Shown here: positions 3,001 through 43,087 of the stretch, piece after piece
Layout: the number at the start of each line of letters is the position of its first letter
Position numbering within the stretch: the stretch's first letter is position 1
Assembly (NCBI GenBank): GCA_946624005.1
Contig: CAMORS010000002.1
Coordinates: forward strand, 18,566 to 82,565
Direction: 5' to 3'
DNA from: an uncultured Prevotella sp.
GTDB taxonomy: Bacteria > Bacteroidota > Bacteroidia > Bacteroidales > Bacteroidaceae
Length of the DNA stretch: 64,000 nucleotides
Notes under the pieces: generated by a model
Seen by the model: the letters and a program-made list of their open reading frames with translations, nothing else
What the model was told of the DNA's origin: nothing
The model's database searches: none
Program-made: the position numbers and the translations under genes

Positions 3001-4515
3001 AACACCCACTACGTGCTACGCAACGATACCATCAGGCTCATTCCTAACGAGATTATCTTCCAAAACGATACCATCCGCGACATCCCCTCCTTTGGAGGGG
3101 CTAGGGGAGGTCTCGGCATCGTCAACGGTGCCCTGCACCACCAGGCTTTGACCAACCTGACCTACGACATTGATATCAAAGCGCAGAACCTGCTCTGCTA
3201 CGACTTCCACGACTACGGCGAGAGCACCTTCTTCGGAACAGTCTACGGCACGGGCGACTGTGCTATCCGCGGGCGGCGTGGGACGATAGACTTCGACATC
3301 AACGTTACGCCCGAAGAAGGTTCGTTCATCGAGTATAACGCTGCTTCGCCCGATGCCATCACCAACCGTGAGTTTATCACATGGCGGTCGAGGGGCGAGG
3401 ATTATTCGAGGTACGAGATTTCTTCGAGGTACGAGGTACGAGGTACGAGGTACGAGAATAGTTTGGTGGAAGGCGAAGACGGTAATCTCGTACCTCGTAC
3501 CTCGCACCTCGCACCTCGAGATAACGCTTCCGACCTGCGGCTGAACTTCCTCATCAATGCCACTCCCGACTGCACGCTGCGTGTGCTGATGGATCGCGAG
3601 AGTGGCGACTGCATCGCGCTGAACGGTACGGGTGCCATCCGTGCTACCTATTATAATAAAGGTTCGTTCGATATGTTTGGCAATTATCTCATCGACCACG
3701 GTTCGTACAAGCTCACCATCCAGAACCTGATGAAGAAGGAGTTCGCGTTCCAGCCTGGCAGCGCCATCGTCTTCGGAGGCGACCCCTATCTCGCAACACT
3801 CAATCTGAACGCTCTCTACACCGTCAACGGTGTGGCTCTCTCCGACTTGCAGATAGGCCGTAGCTTCTCGTCGAACAACGTTCGTGTCGACTGTCTGATG
3901 AACATCGGCGGAACACCGCAGCAGCCTCATGTAGAGTTCGACCTTGACATGCCTACCGTCAGTGCCGACGCCAAGCAGATGGTACGTCAGCTCATCAACA
4001 GCGAAGAAGAGATGAACCAGCAGGTCATCTACCTGCTCTCCATCGGACGTTTCTATACACAGAATGCCAACAATGCCGACGAGAACCAGAGTCAGACGTC
4101 GCTCGCCATGCAGTCGCTCTTGAGTGGTACCATCAGTCAGCAGATTAACAACGTGTTGGGCACCCTTGTCCACTCGTCCAACTGGAACTTCGGAGCCAAT
4201 ATCTCTACCGGCGACGAGGGTTGGAACAATGCCGAATACGAAGGATTGCTCTCCGGCCGACTGCTCAACAACCGACTCTTGATCAACGGACAGTTTGGCT
4301 ATCGTGATAATGCCAACGCCACCACATCGTTCATCGGCGACTTCGACGTGCGCTACCTCCTGCTGCCCAACGGCAATTTGGCCGTGAAGGTGTACAACCA
4401 GACCAACGACCGCTATTTCACCCGCAGCAGTCTCAACACACAGGGCATTGGCTTTGTGTTGAAGAAAGACTTCAATTCGTGGCGCGACCTGTTTGGTTGG
4501 AGAAAGAAGAAGTAG
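37..4515 (+). CDS. tamB: TamB/DUF490-like translocation and assembly module protein
   Basis: About 1500-aa ORF with an N-terminal TM anchor (RIVQGVLWTIVGLYAFLFVLLKIP), long beta-rich body and C-terminal DUF490-like end (ISTGDEGWNNAEYEGLLSGRLLNNRLLINGQFGYRDN). ORF is open to base 1; likely TTG start at 37 just after a TAATTTTG promoter box. Confidence 0.85.
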   Translation: MKTLKRIVQGVLWTIVGLYAFLFVLLKIPAVQGWIGSQAAHALSEKLGTEVSVGRVEIGLFNRIVVDDVQMDDQSGRQMLQASRLSAKANIIDLLEGKVNISSVQLFGVQANLYQQDAQSKPNFQFVLDSLSSKDNQKKSALDLSIHSLIIRHGAVKFDRLDLPPTHGRFNTAHLDIGNVSAHIVLHRLTNSLIDAQVKKLTMSEASGIDLRSLTGRLKADSTGAVLTDFELALPRTRLAVQQAEAHYQWKDGAPDMRTMTYRAKVKDANIMPSELAPFVPSVKSFDRPLVLSMEVNGNRHKHQISNLSVLTYNQGVALRARQVWLDTSAKSATMAAARSADLTVSEKALAEIADDLSSAKIQLPEQLLRLGSIHWQGDADYGPHRLSADGMLTTDAGRLKLQAETRDQVFNGQVEATEVDMGRVLDNELFGMLSARLTAQGSWPLKDELSIKGNITDFDVKSYRFNNLSVDGRLLNKTMEGHFNLDDPNAQLDFDGTIDLSAQEPAVVAQATVRHFNPNAIGLTQQYPDTFFEADMEADLKGSSLNNANGSLLIRQFSMAGPDHHYQLDRLVVDATSEGADRSLAIDSDFGQVALRGKYDYSTLSESIIHFLSQKLPMLPGLPKVQPSGNNSFALHADIRRSDWLQAFFGIPLSIEKPLIVDGTINDSQKQMFADLLAPSFYFDGGAYQNVVAHVTTNDEGQLETQTSLTKLMDNGRKLDVQVEAQAGSNEIVSAITWDDHQQRPMKGRLLSTTELFRNERGEQTAHIRVHPSEIQMGDTAWQVEPSDILYSKNNLVVDYFAVAHNRQHIIVQGKATEHRSDSLVVDLSDVDVNYITNMVNFHAVEFGGKVSGRACVRSAFRQPDAYADISVRQFTFEEGRLGTLFAKARWNREEKQIDIDAHADEPEDSGYGQTLVNGYISPSKHFIDLAIRPRRARAEFLESFCGSFMDNVAVSVTGDLRLAGDLSEINLTGEAVADGELDITSLNTHYVLRNDTIRLIPNEIIFQNDTIRDIPSFGGARGGLGIVNGALHHQALTNLTYDIDIKAQNLLCYDFHDYGESTFFGTVYGTGDCAIRGRRGTIDFDINVTPEEGSFIEYNAASPDAITNREFITWRSRGEDYSRYEISSRYEVRGTRYENSLVEGEDGNLVPRTSHLAPRDNASDLRLNFLINATPDCTLRVLMDRESGDCIALNGTGAIRATYYNKGSFDMFGNYLIDHGSYKLTIQNLMKKEFAFQPGSAIVFGGDPYLATLNLNALYTVNGVALSDLQIGRSFSSNNVRVDCLMNIGGTPQQPHVEFDLDMPTVSADAKQMVRQLINSEEEMNQQVIYLLSIGRFYTQNANNADENQSQTSLAMQSLLSGTISQQINNVLGTLVHSSNWNFGANISTGDEGWNNAEYEGLLSGRLLNNRLLINGQFGYRDNANATTSFIGDFDVRYLLLPNGNLAVKVYNQTNDRYFTRSSLNTQGIGFVLKKDFNSWRDLFGWRKKK
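3084..3110 (+). repeat. CCCCTCC-TTT-GGAGGGG-CTAGGGGAGG hairpin repeat inside tamB
   Basis: Perfect 7-bp stem; similar G/C-block hairpins are intergenic at 18241-18268 and 41100-41126. Confidence 0.6.
3388..3525 (+). repeat. GAGGTAC 7-mer inverted repeat element inserted in frame in tamB
   Basis: (GAGGTAC)n ... GAGAATAGT...GGTAATCTC ... (GTACCTC)n, ending CCTCGAGATAAC. Its reverse complement matches the intergenic element at 12099-12214. Confidence 0.85.
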
Positions 4516-11448: not shown

Positions 11449-11609
11449 CGAGGGTGCGGGGGTTCTATTCGAGGGTGCGGGGGTACGAGGGTACGAGGGT
11501 GCGAGATTAGCTTTGTCGCTTGGCACAGATGTATTCTCGTACCCCCGTACCCCCGTACCCTCGTACCCTCGATCTTTATTCTCGTACCCACGTACCTTCG
11601 TACCCACGA
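11449..11609. repeat. Inverted array of 8-mers (GAGGGTAC/GAGGGTGC ... GTACCCTC/GTACCCCC)
   Basis: Left arm 11449-11505, right arm 11534-11609, opposite orientation around a loop flanked by CGAGATTA and TATTCTCG. Confidence 0.8.
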
Positions 11610-11626
11610 TATACCATGCGTCCCTG

Positions 11627-11736
11627 GAGGTCGTTGATGGTCTCTGATGAGGTCGTTGATGGTCTCTGATGAGGTCGTTGATGGTTTCTGATGTTGTCGT
11701 TGATAGTTTCTGATGTTGTCGTTGATAGTCTCTGAT
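11627..11736 (+). repeat. 22-bp tandem repeat array, 5 units
   Basis: gaggtcgttgatggtctctgat x2, gaggtcgttgatggtttctgat, gttgtcgttgatagtttctgat, gttgtcgttgatagtctctgat; 5 x 22 = 110 bp. Confidence 0.95.
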
Positions 11737-11835: not shown

Positions 11836-12098
11836 ATCTGTAGCATGATGTGTTACAATGGAAAAATGTGATTAAACCGTTGACCTATAGTGAGTTATAC
11901 TCAATGTCTTAAATCTTGTAACACTTGTACACTTTAAATGCAATAAATTAAGGTTACATCAAGAAAATAAATATTTATAAGGTAAGAATAGAAAAGATGT
12001 GTAGCATCTGTATCTGTTACAAAAGAGCCTGGCCCACTGCTTTGAGCTGATGCCTTTCTTCATCGAGGGTGCGGGGGTGCGGGGGTGCGAGATTACTG

Positions 12099-12214
12099 TT
12101 ATCTCGAGGTGCGAGGTGCGAGGTACGAGGTACGAGATTACTGTCAGGCCCTTCAATACTATTCTCGCCCAACGTACCTCGTACCTCGTACCTCGAATAA
12201 TCCTCGCCTCTCGA
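12099..12214. repeat. Intergenic copy of the GAGGTAC inverted repeat element
   Basis: gttatctcgaggtgcgaggtgcgaggtacgaggtacgagatta...tattctcg...gtacctcgtacctcgtacctcgaataatcctcgcctctcga; reverse complement of the tamB insert with a shorter arm. Confidence 0.85.
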
Positions 12215-17191: not shown

Positions 17192-17364
17192 AGATTCTCG
17201 TTGTTGTATGGTTAATAATAATATGTATCAAAAAATCACCTCAAAAGTACAAAGAAAATATTTATTGACAAAATAAAATGTAAGTAATTTGCAAAAATAA
17301 GTTGTTTTTTACATTTCATTGATAAAAATTGAAATTAAAATGGGGCTTGCTGATAAAAAATAGC

Positions 17365-17372
17365 TACCTTTG
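17365..17372 (+). promoter_or_regulatory. -7 box TACCTTTG 7 nt before the ATG at 17380
   Basis: Consensus TAnnTTTG. Confidence 0.5.
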
Positions 17373-17379
17373 CGGCGTC

Positions 17380-18093
17380 ATGAAGAAGCATCGCAAATCG
17401 TCAATACCTGTCGCTGCAGAAACGCGAAAGTCGCCGACGGCTATAGCCACCGACGACCGTCAGCACCTCCTGCGACTGATTCGCCAAGGTGAGCACGAGC
17501 AGCAAGACTTCAAATACAAGGTGATGGATGCCGAGAAGCTGGCGCGCTCGGTGTCGGCCTTTGCCAACACGAGCGGTGGCCGTCTGCTCATCGGGGTGCG
17601 CGACGACGGTCATATTTCCGGTGTGCGCTCCGAGGAAGAAATCTTCATGATGCATGCTGCGGCCTTCAAGTGGTGCCGTCCGCAGGCAGACATCAAGTTC
17701 GAGACGCTCTATGCCGAAGGTAAGACCGTCGTCATCGCCACCGTGCCGCCCTCCGTCCGCAAGCCCGTCTGTGCTCTCGACGATGAGGGAAGACCGAAGG
17801 CCTACATCCGCATTGCCGACGAGAACATCGTGGCCTCGCCCGTCCATCTGAGCATCTGGAGGATGGAGGCATCGCCGAAAGGCCAGACGATGACCTTCGG
17901 CGACGAAGAGCGGACCATCTTAACGACTTTGGCCGACCATCCAGGACTGACGCTCAACCGGCTTGTCCGCATGACGCGCATCAATCGCCGACAAGTCGTC
18001 GACACGCTGGCGCGCCTCATCCGCTTCGGCCTGGTCGTGATGCAACATGCTGAGCAGCAGTTCCTTTTCTATGAAACGACAGACGAAAGATGA
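17380..18093 (+). CDS. AlbA_2/Schlafen-like putative DNA-binding/ATP-binding domain protein
   Basis: GEHEQQDFKYKVMDAEKLARSVSAFANTSGGRLLIGVRDDGHISGV is typical of the AlbA_2 family; C-terminal wHTH-like segment. Confidence 0.8.
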   Translation: MKKHRKSSIPVAAETRKSPTAIATDDRQHLLRLIRQGEHEQQDFKYKVMDAEKLARSVSAFANTSGGRLLIGVRDDGHISGVRSEEEIFMMHAAAFKWCRPQADIKFETLYAEGKTVVIATVPPSVRKPVCALDDEGRPKAYIRIADENIVASPVHLSIWRMEASPKGQTMTFGDEERTILTTLADHPGLTLNRLVRMTRINRRQVVDTLARLIRFGLVVMQHAEQQFLFYETTDER

Positions 18094-18180
18094 TGACCAA
18101 GTTTTGGACCATTTGTATCCAAAAAGCTCAATACCTCACCAAAACTTCCGGAATCCCTTTATTTATGCAGGGTTTGGATG

Positions 18181-18430
18181 GTGAGGTGTTTGGCAAACAC
18201 CCCACCAGACATCTCACCAAACACCTCACCATTTTGGGAACCCCTCCCAGCCTCCCCAAAGGGGAGGAGCCCCAAGTGGCACATGTAGGAGGCGACGCAT
18301 CCTTGCGTCGCAACAGCACATAAGAAGCAATGAATGGTGGGGTCTCTGGTGAGGTGTATGGTGAGGTGATAAATAAACACCTCACCATCGGGAAGTCCGA
18401 TAAACAGAGCTGTTCAGCACAATTTGGTGA
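18181..18430. repeat. 12-mer (GGTGAGGTGTNT) inverted repeat arrays
   Basis: ggtgaggtgtttggcaaacaccccaccagacatctcaccaaacacctcacc and ggtggggtctctggtgaggtgtatggtgaggtgataaataaacacctcacc; further copy at 18425. Confidence 0.75.
18277..18322. repeat. GTGGCA-hairpin-CAACAGCACATA repeat
   Basis: GCGACGCA TCCT TGCGTCGC stem, 8 bp, 4-nt loop. Confidence 0.55.
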
Positions 18431-18532
18431 GGTGTTGCCCTGTCTTCAGCAAAACTTTTTCTGTGTATATTGCCCCATTCTTTGCAAGAGTTTTCTGTGG
18501 GTGTTGAACATTATTCCGGGATGGCCTGAACA

Positions 18533-18663
18533 GGCGTCGGAGATGGCTTCTGAGCATGTCGCAGATACTTTCTGAGCAGGTCAGAGACTATCCCTGACCA
18601 GGTCAGAGATGGTTGCTGAGCTTGTCAAATACTATCTCTGACAATGTCAGCAACCATCTCTTT
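18533..18663 (+). repeat. 22-bp tandem repeat array, 6 units (last partial)
   Basis: ggcgtcggagatggcttctgag / catgtcgcagatactttctgag / caggtcagagactatccctgac / caggtcagagatggttgctgag / cttgtcaaatactatctctgac / aatgtcagcaaccatctct. Confidence 0.9.
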
Positions 18664-18687
18664 TGAACTTGCTGTATTCGGGTTCAC

Positions 18688-20433
18688 TTATTTAATAGTT
18701 TTCCCAGGTTCTAGATAGAAATAGGAGTCGTCGTGTGTTATTGTCTTGCTATCGCGGTAATCTGTCTCAGCAGGAGAGAGTGTAATATAGAGTCCCCCGC
18801 AGCCACGCTCGGTTTGAAAGCCGCTATGCTCGTAGGTGGAGAGGAAATAGAGGTTCTTCGCCATGTACATATAGAGGTAGTTGTCGATGGTGATGGGGTT
18901 ATGGTTCCAGTTGGCATCCTCGTTCAAAACAAGAGGTCGCCCATTGATGAGTCGTTGGCGCACTTCTCCGATACCAAGTAGCTTTCCTTCATCGTCGCTG
19001 ACGTAGGCGGCAAATGAGGGATCCATCCAAATCCACTTGTTTATATCGTGGCTCCATACCATACAGATGACGTGGCAGTCACTGTCGGAATCGTAGGCTT
19101 TCGGTTCACAAGTAACGAAGCGTGCAGGCCATCCCATGGCGAGATAGAGTTCGGAAAGTACTATGGCGAGCCCACGACAGTTTAATCCGCGTTGCTGCTG
19201 CTTGCAGGCATCATATAGGTCAATGGCATTACGAGGTACATCGGGTATTCCCCCGTTGCCATCGTGCTCTATTTCATTGTGCAGCCAATACATGATGTTC
19301 TTCATACGTGCTATTTCATCCCCTGCCCCTGCAATACTGTCGAGATGGAAATACTGACGGACACGTACCAGATTCTCATCACCTTGGTCGGCATAAGTAA
19401 AAGTAGGCAGCGACCGTTCTTCTTTAGCATAAGGAGCGGCTTTTTTCAAAAGCTGCATGTAGTCTAACCCTTCACGCCACTTCTGTTGATTGTCGCGCAT
19501 CAGATCCATCACTTGCTGAAAGCGACTGTCTGGTCGCAAGAAGTTCCAAAATGGATCGTATTCAAAGTTTTCTATACTTTTGTACCCCGCCTCTGCTGCT
19601 TCTCCCAACAGCTTGATCGTGGCCTCCTTCCCTCCTTTCATTGCAAAAGCCGTGGCCAGCAGATATTTGACATCAGCACGGATTTGGTTTAGGAAGTTGT
19701 TGCCAGTCAGACATTCGTCTGCTATTTGGTTTGCGTCTTTCAAGGTTTCGAGCGTCTTGTCGTCGAGATCAGATGCCTTGCACCGCTTGATGAAATTCTC
19801 ATAACTGCTCCAAATTACGGGAGCATTCGTGATATATCCCTTGAAATTCGGACATTCTATGGCTTCGCCGATACCTGTTCCCACGACGACTCCATTGAAT
19901 GTAACCCGTTCCAGCAACGGACAGTCGTAGGCCAATGTTGGTCCGCCGGTAGTCAACACGATGCCATTGAACACCACTTCGCGCAGGCGCGGACACTGAC
20001 AGAAAGCTGAACCAGCATCAATATGTCCAAGATAGCCATTGAACGTAATGCGCTCCACAGCACGTAAACCTGTGAATGAACCGCCACTGACATACGATAG
20101 TTTTCCGAATGTAATCTCTTCCAACAAACTATTCTGGAACACTCCGTTCGGGAATACTCCTTCCCCCTCGTCGTATTCCTCACCGCTTTTCACGATGTGG
20201 GTTCGCGACAAGTCTATTCGGCGCAGAAGCCCCAACCTTGACATTTCGCTCATCAGCTGAAAGTCTGCTTTGTTGATGGGGCCTTCTACGGTGAGTTCAT
20301 GAATGGACAAACGGTGCGGACCTAACACTTCGCTCAGTGTTCCTGCCTCTTTTAACACGACGCTTTTGCCATAGGCAGAAACTGAAAAAACGGTCAGTAG
20401 CAATATAGCTACCATTGTCTTGATTGTTCTCAT
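18688..20433 (-). CDS. Secreted leucine-rich repeat (BspA-like) and transglutaminase-like protein
   Basis: Signal peptide; LRR-like ITFNG/VVFNG repeats; transglutaminase-like triad region NCRGLAIVLSELYLAMGWPARFVTC ... DCHVICMVW ... WIWMDPSF. Confidence 0.75.
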   Translation of the reverse strand: MRTIKTMVAILLLTVFSVSAYGKSVVLKEAGTLSEVLGPHRLSIHELTVEGPINKADFQLMSEMSRLGLLRRIDLSRTHIVKSGEEYDEGEGVFPNGVFQNSLLEEITFGKLSYVSGGSFTGLRAVERITFNGYLGHIDAGSAFCQCPRLREVVFNGIVLTTGGPTLAYDCPLLERVTFNGVVVGTGIGEAIECPNFKGYITNAPVIWSSYENFIKRCKASDLDDKTLETLKDANQIADECLTGNNFLNQIRADVKYLLATAFAMKGGKEATIKLLGEAAEAGYKSIENFEYDPFWNFLRPDSRFQQVMDLMRDNQQKWREGLDYMQLLKKAAPYAKEERSLPTFTYADQGDENLVRVRQYFHLDSIAGAGDEIARMKNIMYWLHNEIEHDGNGGIPDVPRNAIDLYDACKQQQRGLNCRGLAIVLSELYLAMGWPARFVTCEPKAYDSDSDCHVICMVWSHDINKWIWMDPSFAAYVSDDEGKLLGIGEVRQRLINGRPLVLNEDANWNHNPITIDNYLYMYMAKNLYFLSTYEHSGFQTERGCGGLYITLSPAETDYRDSKTITHDDSYFYLEPGKTIK

Positions 20434-20461
20434 ATTAACTATTGTCTTGATTTTCTTTCCA

Positions 20462-42955: not shown

Positions 42956-43087
42956 CACCTCATTGATGATCTCCGACTTGCTCGTAGATAATCTCTGACC
43001 TGCTCGTAGATAATCTCTGACCTGCTCGTAGATAATCTCTGACCCTATCAAAGACCATCTCTGACATGCTCAAAGACCATCTCTGAC
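42956..43087 (+). repeat. 22-bp tandem repeat array, 6 units
   Basis: cacctcattgatgatctccgac / ttgctcgtagataatctctgac / ctgctcgtagataatctctgac x2 / cctatcaaagaccatctctgac / atgctcaaagaccatctctgac. Confidence 0.95.

Follow-up and report, generated by a model that had tools for sequence, protein, structure and literature searches.

The window, that is, the whole stretch of 64,000 nucleotides analysed here, lies in contig 2 of the metagenome-assembled genome of a rumen Prevotella (G000, the own genome in what follows; 2.64 Mb, 127 contigs, 82% complete). Between the genes for an AlbA_2 (Schlafen-like) protein and a transglutaminase-core protein it holds a composite, MITE-like element, in which two inverted arms enclose a middle of nested repeats and a linker leads to a terminal array of 22-bp units, array 2 (Table 1). 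The earlier note on this DNA had described a 22-mer repeat at 18533-18663; the repeat is real and consists of six units at 18536-18664, the last of which is decayed and carries the array to its end. TRF called the 22-bp period in the window at 18536-18621. No known RNA family was matched in an Rfam search of the window, and a CRISPR array was ruled out, as there are no unique spacers and the units abut via spacers of 3 bp. Two sister arrays of the same family lie in the window. Runs of units of 7-8 bp (CGAGGTA, CGAGGGTA, CTCGTACC) also occur there, in intergenic DNA and on both strands, at 11470-11605, 12060-12195 and 3388-3518.

Table 1. Features around array 2, its sister arrays, and arrays of a second family in the own genome (positions in the window unless a locus is named)
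Feature	Position	Strand	Remarks
AlbA_2 (Schlafen-like) protein	17329..18093	+	upstream of the element
Composite MITE-like element	18111..18674	+	blastn against own-genome loci; outer ends approximate, set by BLAST match limits
Arm 1	about 18121..18233	+	inverted copy of arm 2, rich in CACCTCACC
Middle	18239..18330	.	dispersed repeats, nested; varies within orthologous pairs of other loci (L048/L107, L059/L104)
Arm 2	18335..18437	+	array on arm-2 side in 38 of the 39 loci having an array
Linker, arm 2 to array	18438..18535	+	apparent extra decayed unit just before 18536
Array 2, 22-bp family	18536..18664	.	six units, each a 19-bp dyad plus 3-bp spacer
Transglutaminase-core protein	18688..20433	-	3' end 23 bp from array 2
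Array 1, family of array 2	11630..11736	.	five units; no arms found
Array 3, family of array 2	42959..43087	.	six units; no arms found
Second-family arrays, own genome	L175 19485-19602; L176 16198-16318; L177 11433-11545; L178 13193-13304; L185 3347-3457; L192 2427-2588		

Anatomy, pitch and turnover of the 22-bp unit

A scan of fetched stretches with a matrix built from unit dimers yielded 41 arrays at first and 56 after loci of the arm module had been added. The own genome holds at least 56 arrays with 321 units of the array-2 family, in a set whose arrays were first chosen by motif and whose units were partly selected by the consensus itself, and for which a consensus-matrix search would overlook units that are weak or off-phase. 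An exact two-unit pattern matched the own genome 90 times (46 forward, 44 reverse; reversed control, 0), and this genome was its sole match among 251 in the sample of the taxonomic family. With two mismatches allowed, the pattern was found in 8 of 398 genomes of the genus, the own genome counted. The near relatives G332 (RGIG9214, from water deer), G263 (RGIG3545, from goat) and G529 (RUG14668), all rumen Prevotella MAGs, carry the same array family, and a single match in the actinobacterial Enemella (L037) was taken as chance.

The unit consensus reads (G)TC rga GA Y N R TC tcy GA(C), followed by three free bases. In its core, TCnnnGAynRTCnnnGA, the TC, GA, TC and GA steps (positions 2,3, 7,8, 12,13 and 17,18) are near-invariant, while the triplets, the centre base and the spacer vary. 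Among 226 oriented units, information content is 1.56-1.87 bits at positions 2, 3, 8, 12, 17 and 18, about 1.4 bits at 7 and 13, and 0.23-0.99 bits at 4-6 and 10; the 1.2-1.5 bits at positions 14-16 are inflated, because the arrays were oriented by that side, and the spacer positions 20-22 hold 0.01-0.17 bits (strand-symmetrised). In orthologous units of G000 and G332, substitutions were counted at 14 of 368 sites at the eight TC/GA positions versus 77 of 552 at variable ones (Fisher p 1.3e-7), and at 8 of 92 at positions 9 and 11, with exclusion set at more than six differences per unit pair (all 46 pairs printed have six or fewer); the low TC/GA figure may be due in part to exchange between units that have the conserved letters in common. 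Both measures bear out the claim in the earlier note that divergence is concentrated at fixed positions. Evenly spread divergence, or presence in one strain only, had been named there as grounds for abandoning its reading, and neither was found.

The same note took the unit for a near-palindrome, which holds for the consensus dyad but not for the exact form: GTCAGAGAnnnTCTCTGAC is exact in 10 of the 321 units and 7-bp arms are present in 48, and a perfect palindrome as the rule was rejected. The innermost pair of the dyad, 9/11, is complementary at a frequency of 0.10 compared with 0.38 in shuffles (z -10.6), and the outermost pair, 1/19, at 0.18 compared with 0.37 (z -7.1). The triplet pairs 4/16, 5/15 and 6/14 gave no covariation within units (z -1.3, -2.1 and 0.0). 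Because pair 9/11 avoids complementarity, the centre gives each unit a polarity, either TnG (T-type) or CnA (C-type). Along arrays, T-type units tend to precede C-type units (24 versus 9 transitions in G000, 6 versus 0 in G332); array 2 itself reads T, neither, C, T, C, C. Neighbouring units share spacers and can lie in opposite orientations, the latter a property absent from the earlier note, as were the element ending in an array and the 22-bp dyads of other Prevotella described below.

When distances of up to 100 bp between neighbouring units were measured with no period imposed, 221 of 229 were 22 bp, seven were 44 and one was 12, with no others. At nine pairs of orthologous arrays in G000 and G332, every length change within an array amounted to whole units, and the unit number differed at seven of the nine; at L044, for instance, two units are left in G332, where three others and the arms are missing. 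Arrays are candidate typing markers, since they occur at contig ends in the MAG and change between close relatives. Contigs C30, C43, C57, C72, C122 and C125 of the own genome have arrays some 450 bp or less from their ends, and such repeats probably break short-read assembly.

The own genome contains at least two additional 22-bp families. The second, ACTACATTAATAAAGTAGT, is often flanked by a third, GCAATTTGCGGCATATTGC, and both are near-palindromic.

The element that carries array 2

The inverted-arm module of about 105 bp occurs at 42 loci of the own genome, 39 of which have an array at one end of the element; of the remaining three, two are cut by contig ends and one has none. The arm-2 side of the array is clear in 38, and L052 shows an arm-1-like match only. 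Loci picked by arm sequence alone gave the same picture: 15 of 18 have an array, on the arm-2 side, two are contig-cut and one has none. Conversely, 17 of the 41 arrays initially found are armless. Dispersed modules nested in the element (TGTAGGAGGCGACGC...GCGTCGC and GTAGGGGCGGAACAGCG...) lie at 18284-18330 in the window and in the intergenic flanks of L047, L068 and L069, and their order and number vary between orthologous loci.

Copies of the element can be closely similar: L049 and L051 share 92% identity across about 360 bp. G000 has the L049 element as a single block, and the orthologous site in G332 lacks it. Its flanks (3330-3425 and 3915-4040) form a direct duplication of roughly 45 bp in G000 that is single in the empty G332 site, and no clean short target duplication was found at this one informative site. 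No autonomous copy with coding capacity between the arms was seen. A phage or plasmid origin was rejected, as viral contigs searched with two array patterns and plasmids searched with the element gave no match. At the site orthologous to the locus of array 2, contig 10 of G332 (L102) lacks both the element and the transglutaminase gene and has about 50 bp in place of window positions 18115-20437; the gene and the repeat may have been gained, or lost, jointly.

Arrays at the same pitch in other Prevotella genomes

A motif-free scan of 40 unselected stretches from other Prevotella (92 kb judged noncoding) returned 16 events at lag 22, against a mean of 0.57 events, and a next-highest of 4, at lags 12-40 other than 22. 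The corresponding figures were 7 versus 0.57 in the own genome and 2 versus 0.14 in other genera of the family, and 250 kb of E. coli K-12 gave no events at any lag. The unbiased sets in this work are these unselected stretches and the 18 arm-picked loci; among the former, G437, G505, G529 and G286 had already drawn attention by their motif hits, the stretch used being the start of contig 1, and some ran to only 340 to 5,915 bases, with those under 500 skipped. The sequences of the lag-22 arrays differ between genomes. Profile dyad scores were significant for 26 of 37 lag-22 arrays versus 14 of 50 at lags other than 22; scores of TRF consensuses were weaker, with p <=0.06 in 4 of 19 noncoding arrays of the genus.

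Two families were predicted from 20-kb stretches and then searched for in eight genomes, and both were confirmed. At 22-bp pitch, AAAGRTGGCYTTT gave 39 dimers in G292, a variant of it 18 in G056, and none in the six others, while AAATTCGCCCAAATT gave 65 in G308, two in G292 and none in the other six. A control pattern had no match in G308 or G292 and at most one in any genome.

The 65 matches in G308 reduce to 50 loci, which show no even spacing round the chromosome (CV 0.83). Among the best 30 of the 65 matches, from which the unit, flank, placement and pitch figures for this genome are taken, all 73 neighbour distances equal 22, and 23 of the 30 loci have four units, duplicates included. The unit is again a 19-bp dyad, with a C/G centre and free orientation of units; its innermost pair avoids complementarity, no within-unit covariation was detected, and the analogous centre gives 14 versus 7 T-before-C transitions. 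Flanks are seldom shared (8 flank hits over 26 loci, the duplicates L270, L271, L272 and L274 having been dropped from the flank and placement set). With four units in most of these arrays and flanks rarely in common, it follows that an array can do without MITE arms.

Function and relation to known systems

The most likely function of the arrays, with a probability of about 0.47, is to provide seats for a row of a dimeric DNA-binding protein. Each array is a row of dyad sites (a 19-bp imperfect inverted repeat plus a 3-bp spacer) with a pitch of exactly 22 bp, or about two turns of DNA; several copies of the dimer, seated on adjacent sites, would all face the same side of the helix and make up a small intergenic nucleoprotein patch, in many cases directly downstream of a gene. 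In the own genome, an array is mostly the end piece of a non-coding MITE-like element that spreads it, and close relatives differ in their arrays by whole 22-bp units. The 22-bp distance in 221 of 229 neighbour pairs is as expected for dimers lying side by side on one DNA face. Whole-unit changes, the half-site letters, the lag-22 excess, the dyad scores, the two confirmed families and the occurrence of G308 arrays without arms also favour this reading. Dimer sites had been proposed in the earlier note, and the idea is plausible: the dyad unit, the kept half-sites and the exact pitch lend it partial support, while the arms of the dyad lack within-unit covariation. Two further observations count against a row of dimers. 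In both families studied, the bases of the innermost pair tend not to be complementary, a property superfluous for a simple symmetric dimer site, and a strand preference of 10 arrays to 1 near gene 3' ends is left unexplained by a symmetric DNA site.

That preference bears on the chief alternative, an unlikely one, that the arrays act as RNA, in the form of transcribed structures in 3' UTRs by which messages are terminated or protected, in the manner of REP downstream of E. coli genes, with units pairing by stems tolerant of G-U. In G308, a gene 3' end is found 60 bp or less from 14 of 23 arrays and a 5' end from 2 of 22 (p 4e-4), and in G000 the figures are 12 of 34 versus 4 of 40 (p 0.011). 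On the sense strand within 60 bp of the 3' end, units are mostly T-type, the G-U-compatible orientation, in 10 arrays and C-type in one (p 0.012). Predicted RNA folding has z of about -4 on both strands of the 56 arrays and about -5.3 in 26 G308 arrays, and the T strand folds better in 50 arrays versus 6, owing to G-U pairs. The order of T-type before C-type units, above chance in all three genomes counted, would also fit. Real arrays, however, have no folding advantage over chimeras assembled from the like-polarity units of other arrays (z +0.47, or slightly worse, p 0.009, in the own genome; z -0.05 in G308), and pairing between units was rejected on this ground, as a stem within the unit was for lack of compensatory changes in the own genome and G308. 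In addition, many arrays are separated from the nearest gene end by hundreds of bp, the whole distributions of 3' and 5' distances in G000 do not differ (Mann-Whitney p 0.12), and a pitch without any change of 1 bp is stricter than an array of stems needs. Because real arrays fold no better than chimeras, the DNA-bound row of dimers was ranked first and RNA second.

As to coding sequence, no whole array lies within a called gene in G000. At L158 (1249) and L080 (185) the final 11-15 bases of a called gene fall within the array, which may supply the gene's stop codon, and three arrays of G308 overlap small ORFs of 80-88 codons that are possibly not genes. An earlier remark that the units place stops in all three frames proved correct for 50 of 56 arrays per strand, compared with 34 and 24 after shuffling.

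Less probable still is a role as the binding end of a mobile element, in which the array, like the ends of Tn7 or Mu, would be a row of sites for an unseen transposase that moves the element. The constant arm-2 position of the array in the 15 arm-picked loci and the presence of the L049 element as one block opposite an empty orthologous site are what such an element would leave; the armless arrays among the first 41, the rarity of shared flanks in G308, the want of a coding autonomous copy and of a clean short target duplication at L049, and the absence of plasmid and viral matches all speak against it. The poorest account, already disfavoured, is a neutral minisatellite hitch-hiking in the MITE and expanding by slippage, which would suit the unit-number differences at seven of nine loci and the shared spacers but not the lack of any spacing other than 22 or 44 save one of 12, the unequal distribution of substitutions over the unit, the recurrence of the period in other genomes whose array sequences differ, or the near-constant four units of G308.

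The arrays have a fixed period, a dyad consensus, constrained half-sites, dispersal, turnover by whole units, and the same architecture with other sequences elsewhere in Prevotella. From these features we infer a protein reader, its dimeric state, a change in its specificity between lineages and a role for the patch. The comparison suggests that spacing, rather than letters, is what has been kept across the sampled relatives, probably for a DNA-binding protein, and a fixed pitch with changing letters is possibly a general rule. It may tentatively be proposed, by analogy with the co-evolution of REP repeats and their binders, that Prevotella, and perhaps other Bacteroidaceae, carry a class defined by geometry only: imperfect dyads of about 19 bp at 22-bp pitch, few units per locus and tens of loci per genome, their sequence being replaced by lineage together with a fast-evolving reader. 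If only pitch and symmetry are conserved, the arrays point to an unrecognised reader that coats DNA or transcript in steps of 22 bp. Such a reader, if real, would span an abundant gut and rumen genus, and genomes that each have their own site sequence would offer a test bed for finding it and for following co-evolution across species. A literature search by titles and abstracts, with subscription journals mostly outside its coverage, returned no recognisable account of 22-bp Prevotella arrays, and the main text of PMC5771137 contains no 22-bp array. The arrays are set below beside three known systems.

Plasmid iterons (F, P1, pPS10) and the ends of Tn7 and Mu also consist of protein sites of 19-22 bp that recur roughly every two turns of DNA. 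Each replicon or element has one such functional locus, unlike the tens of chromosomal loci, with palindromic units, described here.

The closest in distribution are the REP/BIME/REPIN sequences, which measure 20-40 bp, bear GTAG or CGTC tags and are linked to Y1 transposases (PMC3733652, PMC6006769). Both are short imperfect palindromes in many copies, intergenic and mostly behind genes, with lineage-specific sequence and alternating orientation, although the REP-like 3' preference is clear in G308 and in the own genome holds at close distances only. Unlike REP, the Prevotella arrays have a rigid 22-bp pitch, and their unit consensus, which alone was inspected for this feature, has no GTAG or CGTC tag. 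Among eight genomes searched, Y1_Tnp was found in G000, G332, G308 and G292 and was not found in G056, G529, G150 and G178, all four of which carry 22-bp arrays; the stretches around six Y1 hits held no arrays. A RAYT-driven REP system was rejected on these two grounds, and REP membership is not claimed, given the lack of a tag in the consensus and of Y1_Tnp in four array-bearing genomes.

The closest in architecture is BrickBuilt, an intergenic MITE of P. gingivalis (Bacteroidales). Spacerless tandem units lie in a leader/tail element with inverted ends, whole units are gained or lost between strains, and translational stops and long stem-loops are predicted (PMC4596501). The unit is 23 nt, in up to 22.8 copies with 0-6% indels within an element, at 19 loci, and the element is reported there from P. 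gingivalis and P. gulae only (PMC4596501). As in BrickBuilt, a tandem minisatellite sits in a repeated element, 39 of the 42 arm loci having an array at one end. The Prevotella unit is set apart by length and differs in being exactly 22 bp and dyadic, in arrays of 4-9 units with one off-phase spacing and at least 56 arrays, and in that other Prevotella genomes carry the architecture without shared flanks. Elements of the BrickBuilt type have short terminal inverted repeats and a 4-bp target duplication (PMC4596501); here the arms are inverted but the element ends in the array, and the duplication flanking L049 is roughly 45 bp. The arrays are real, widespread and well ordered, and form a new variant among dispersed palindromic repeats.
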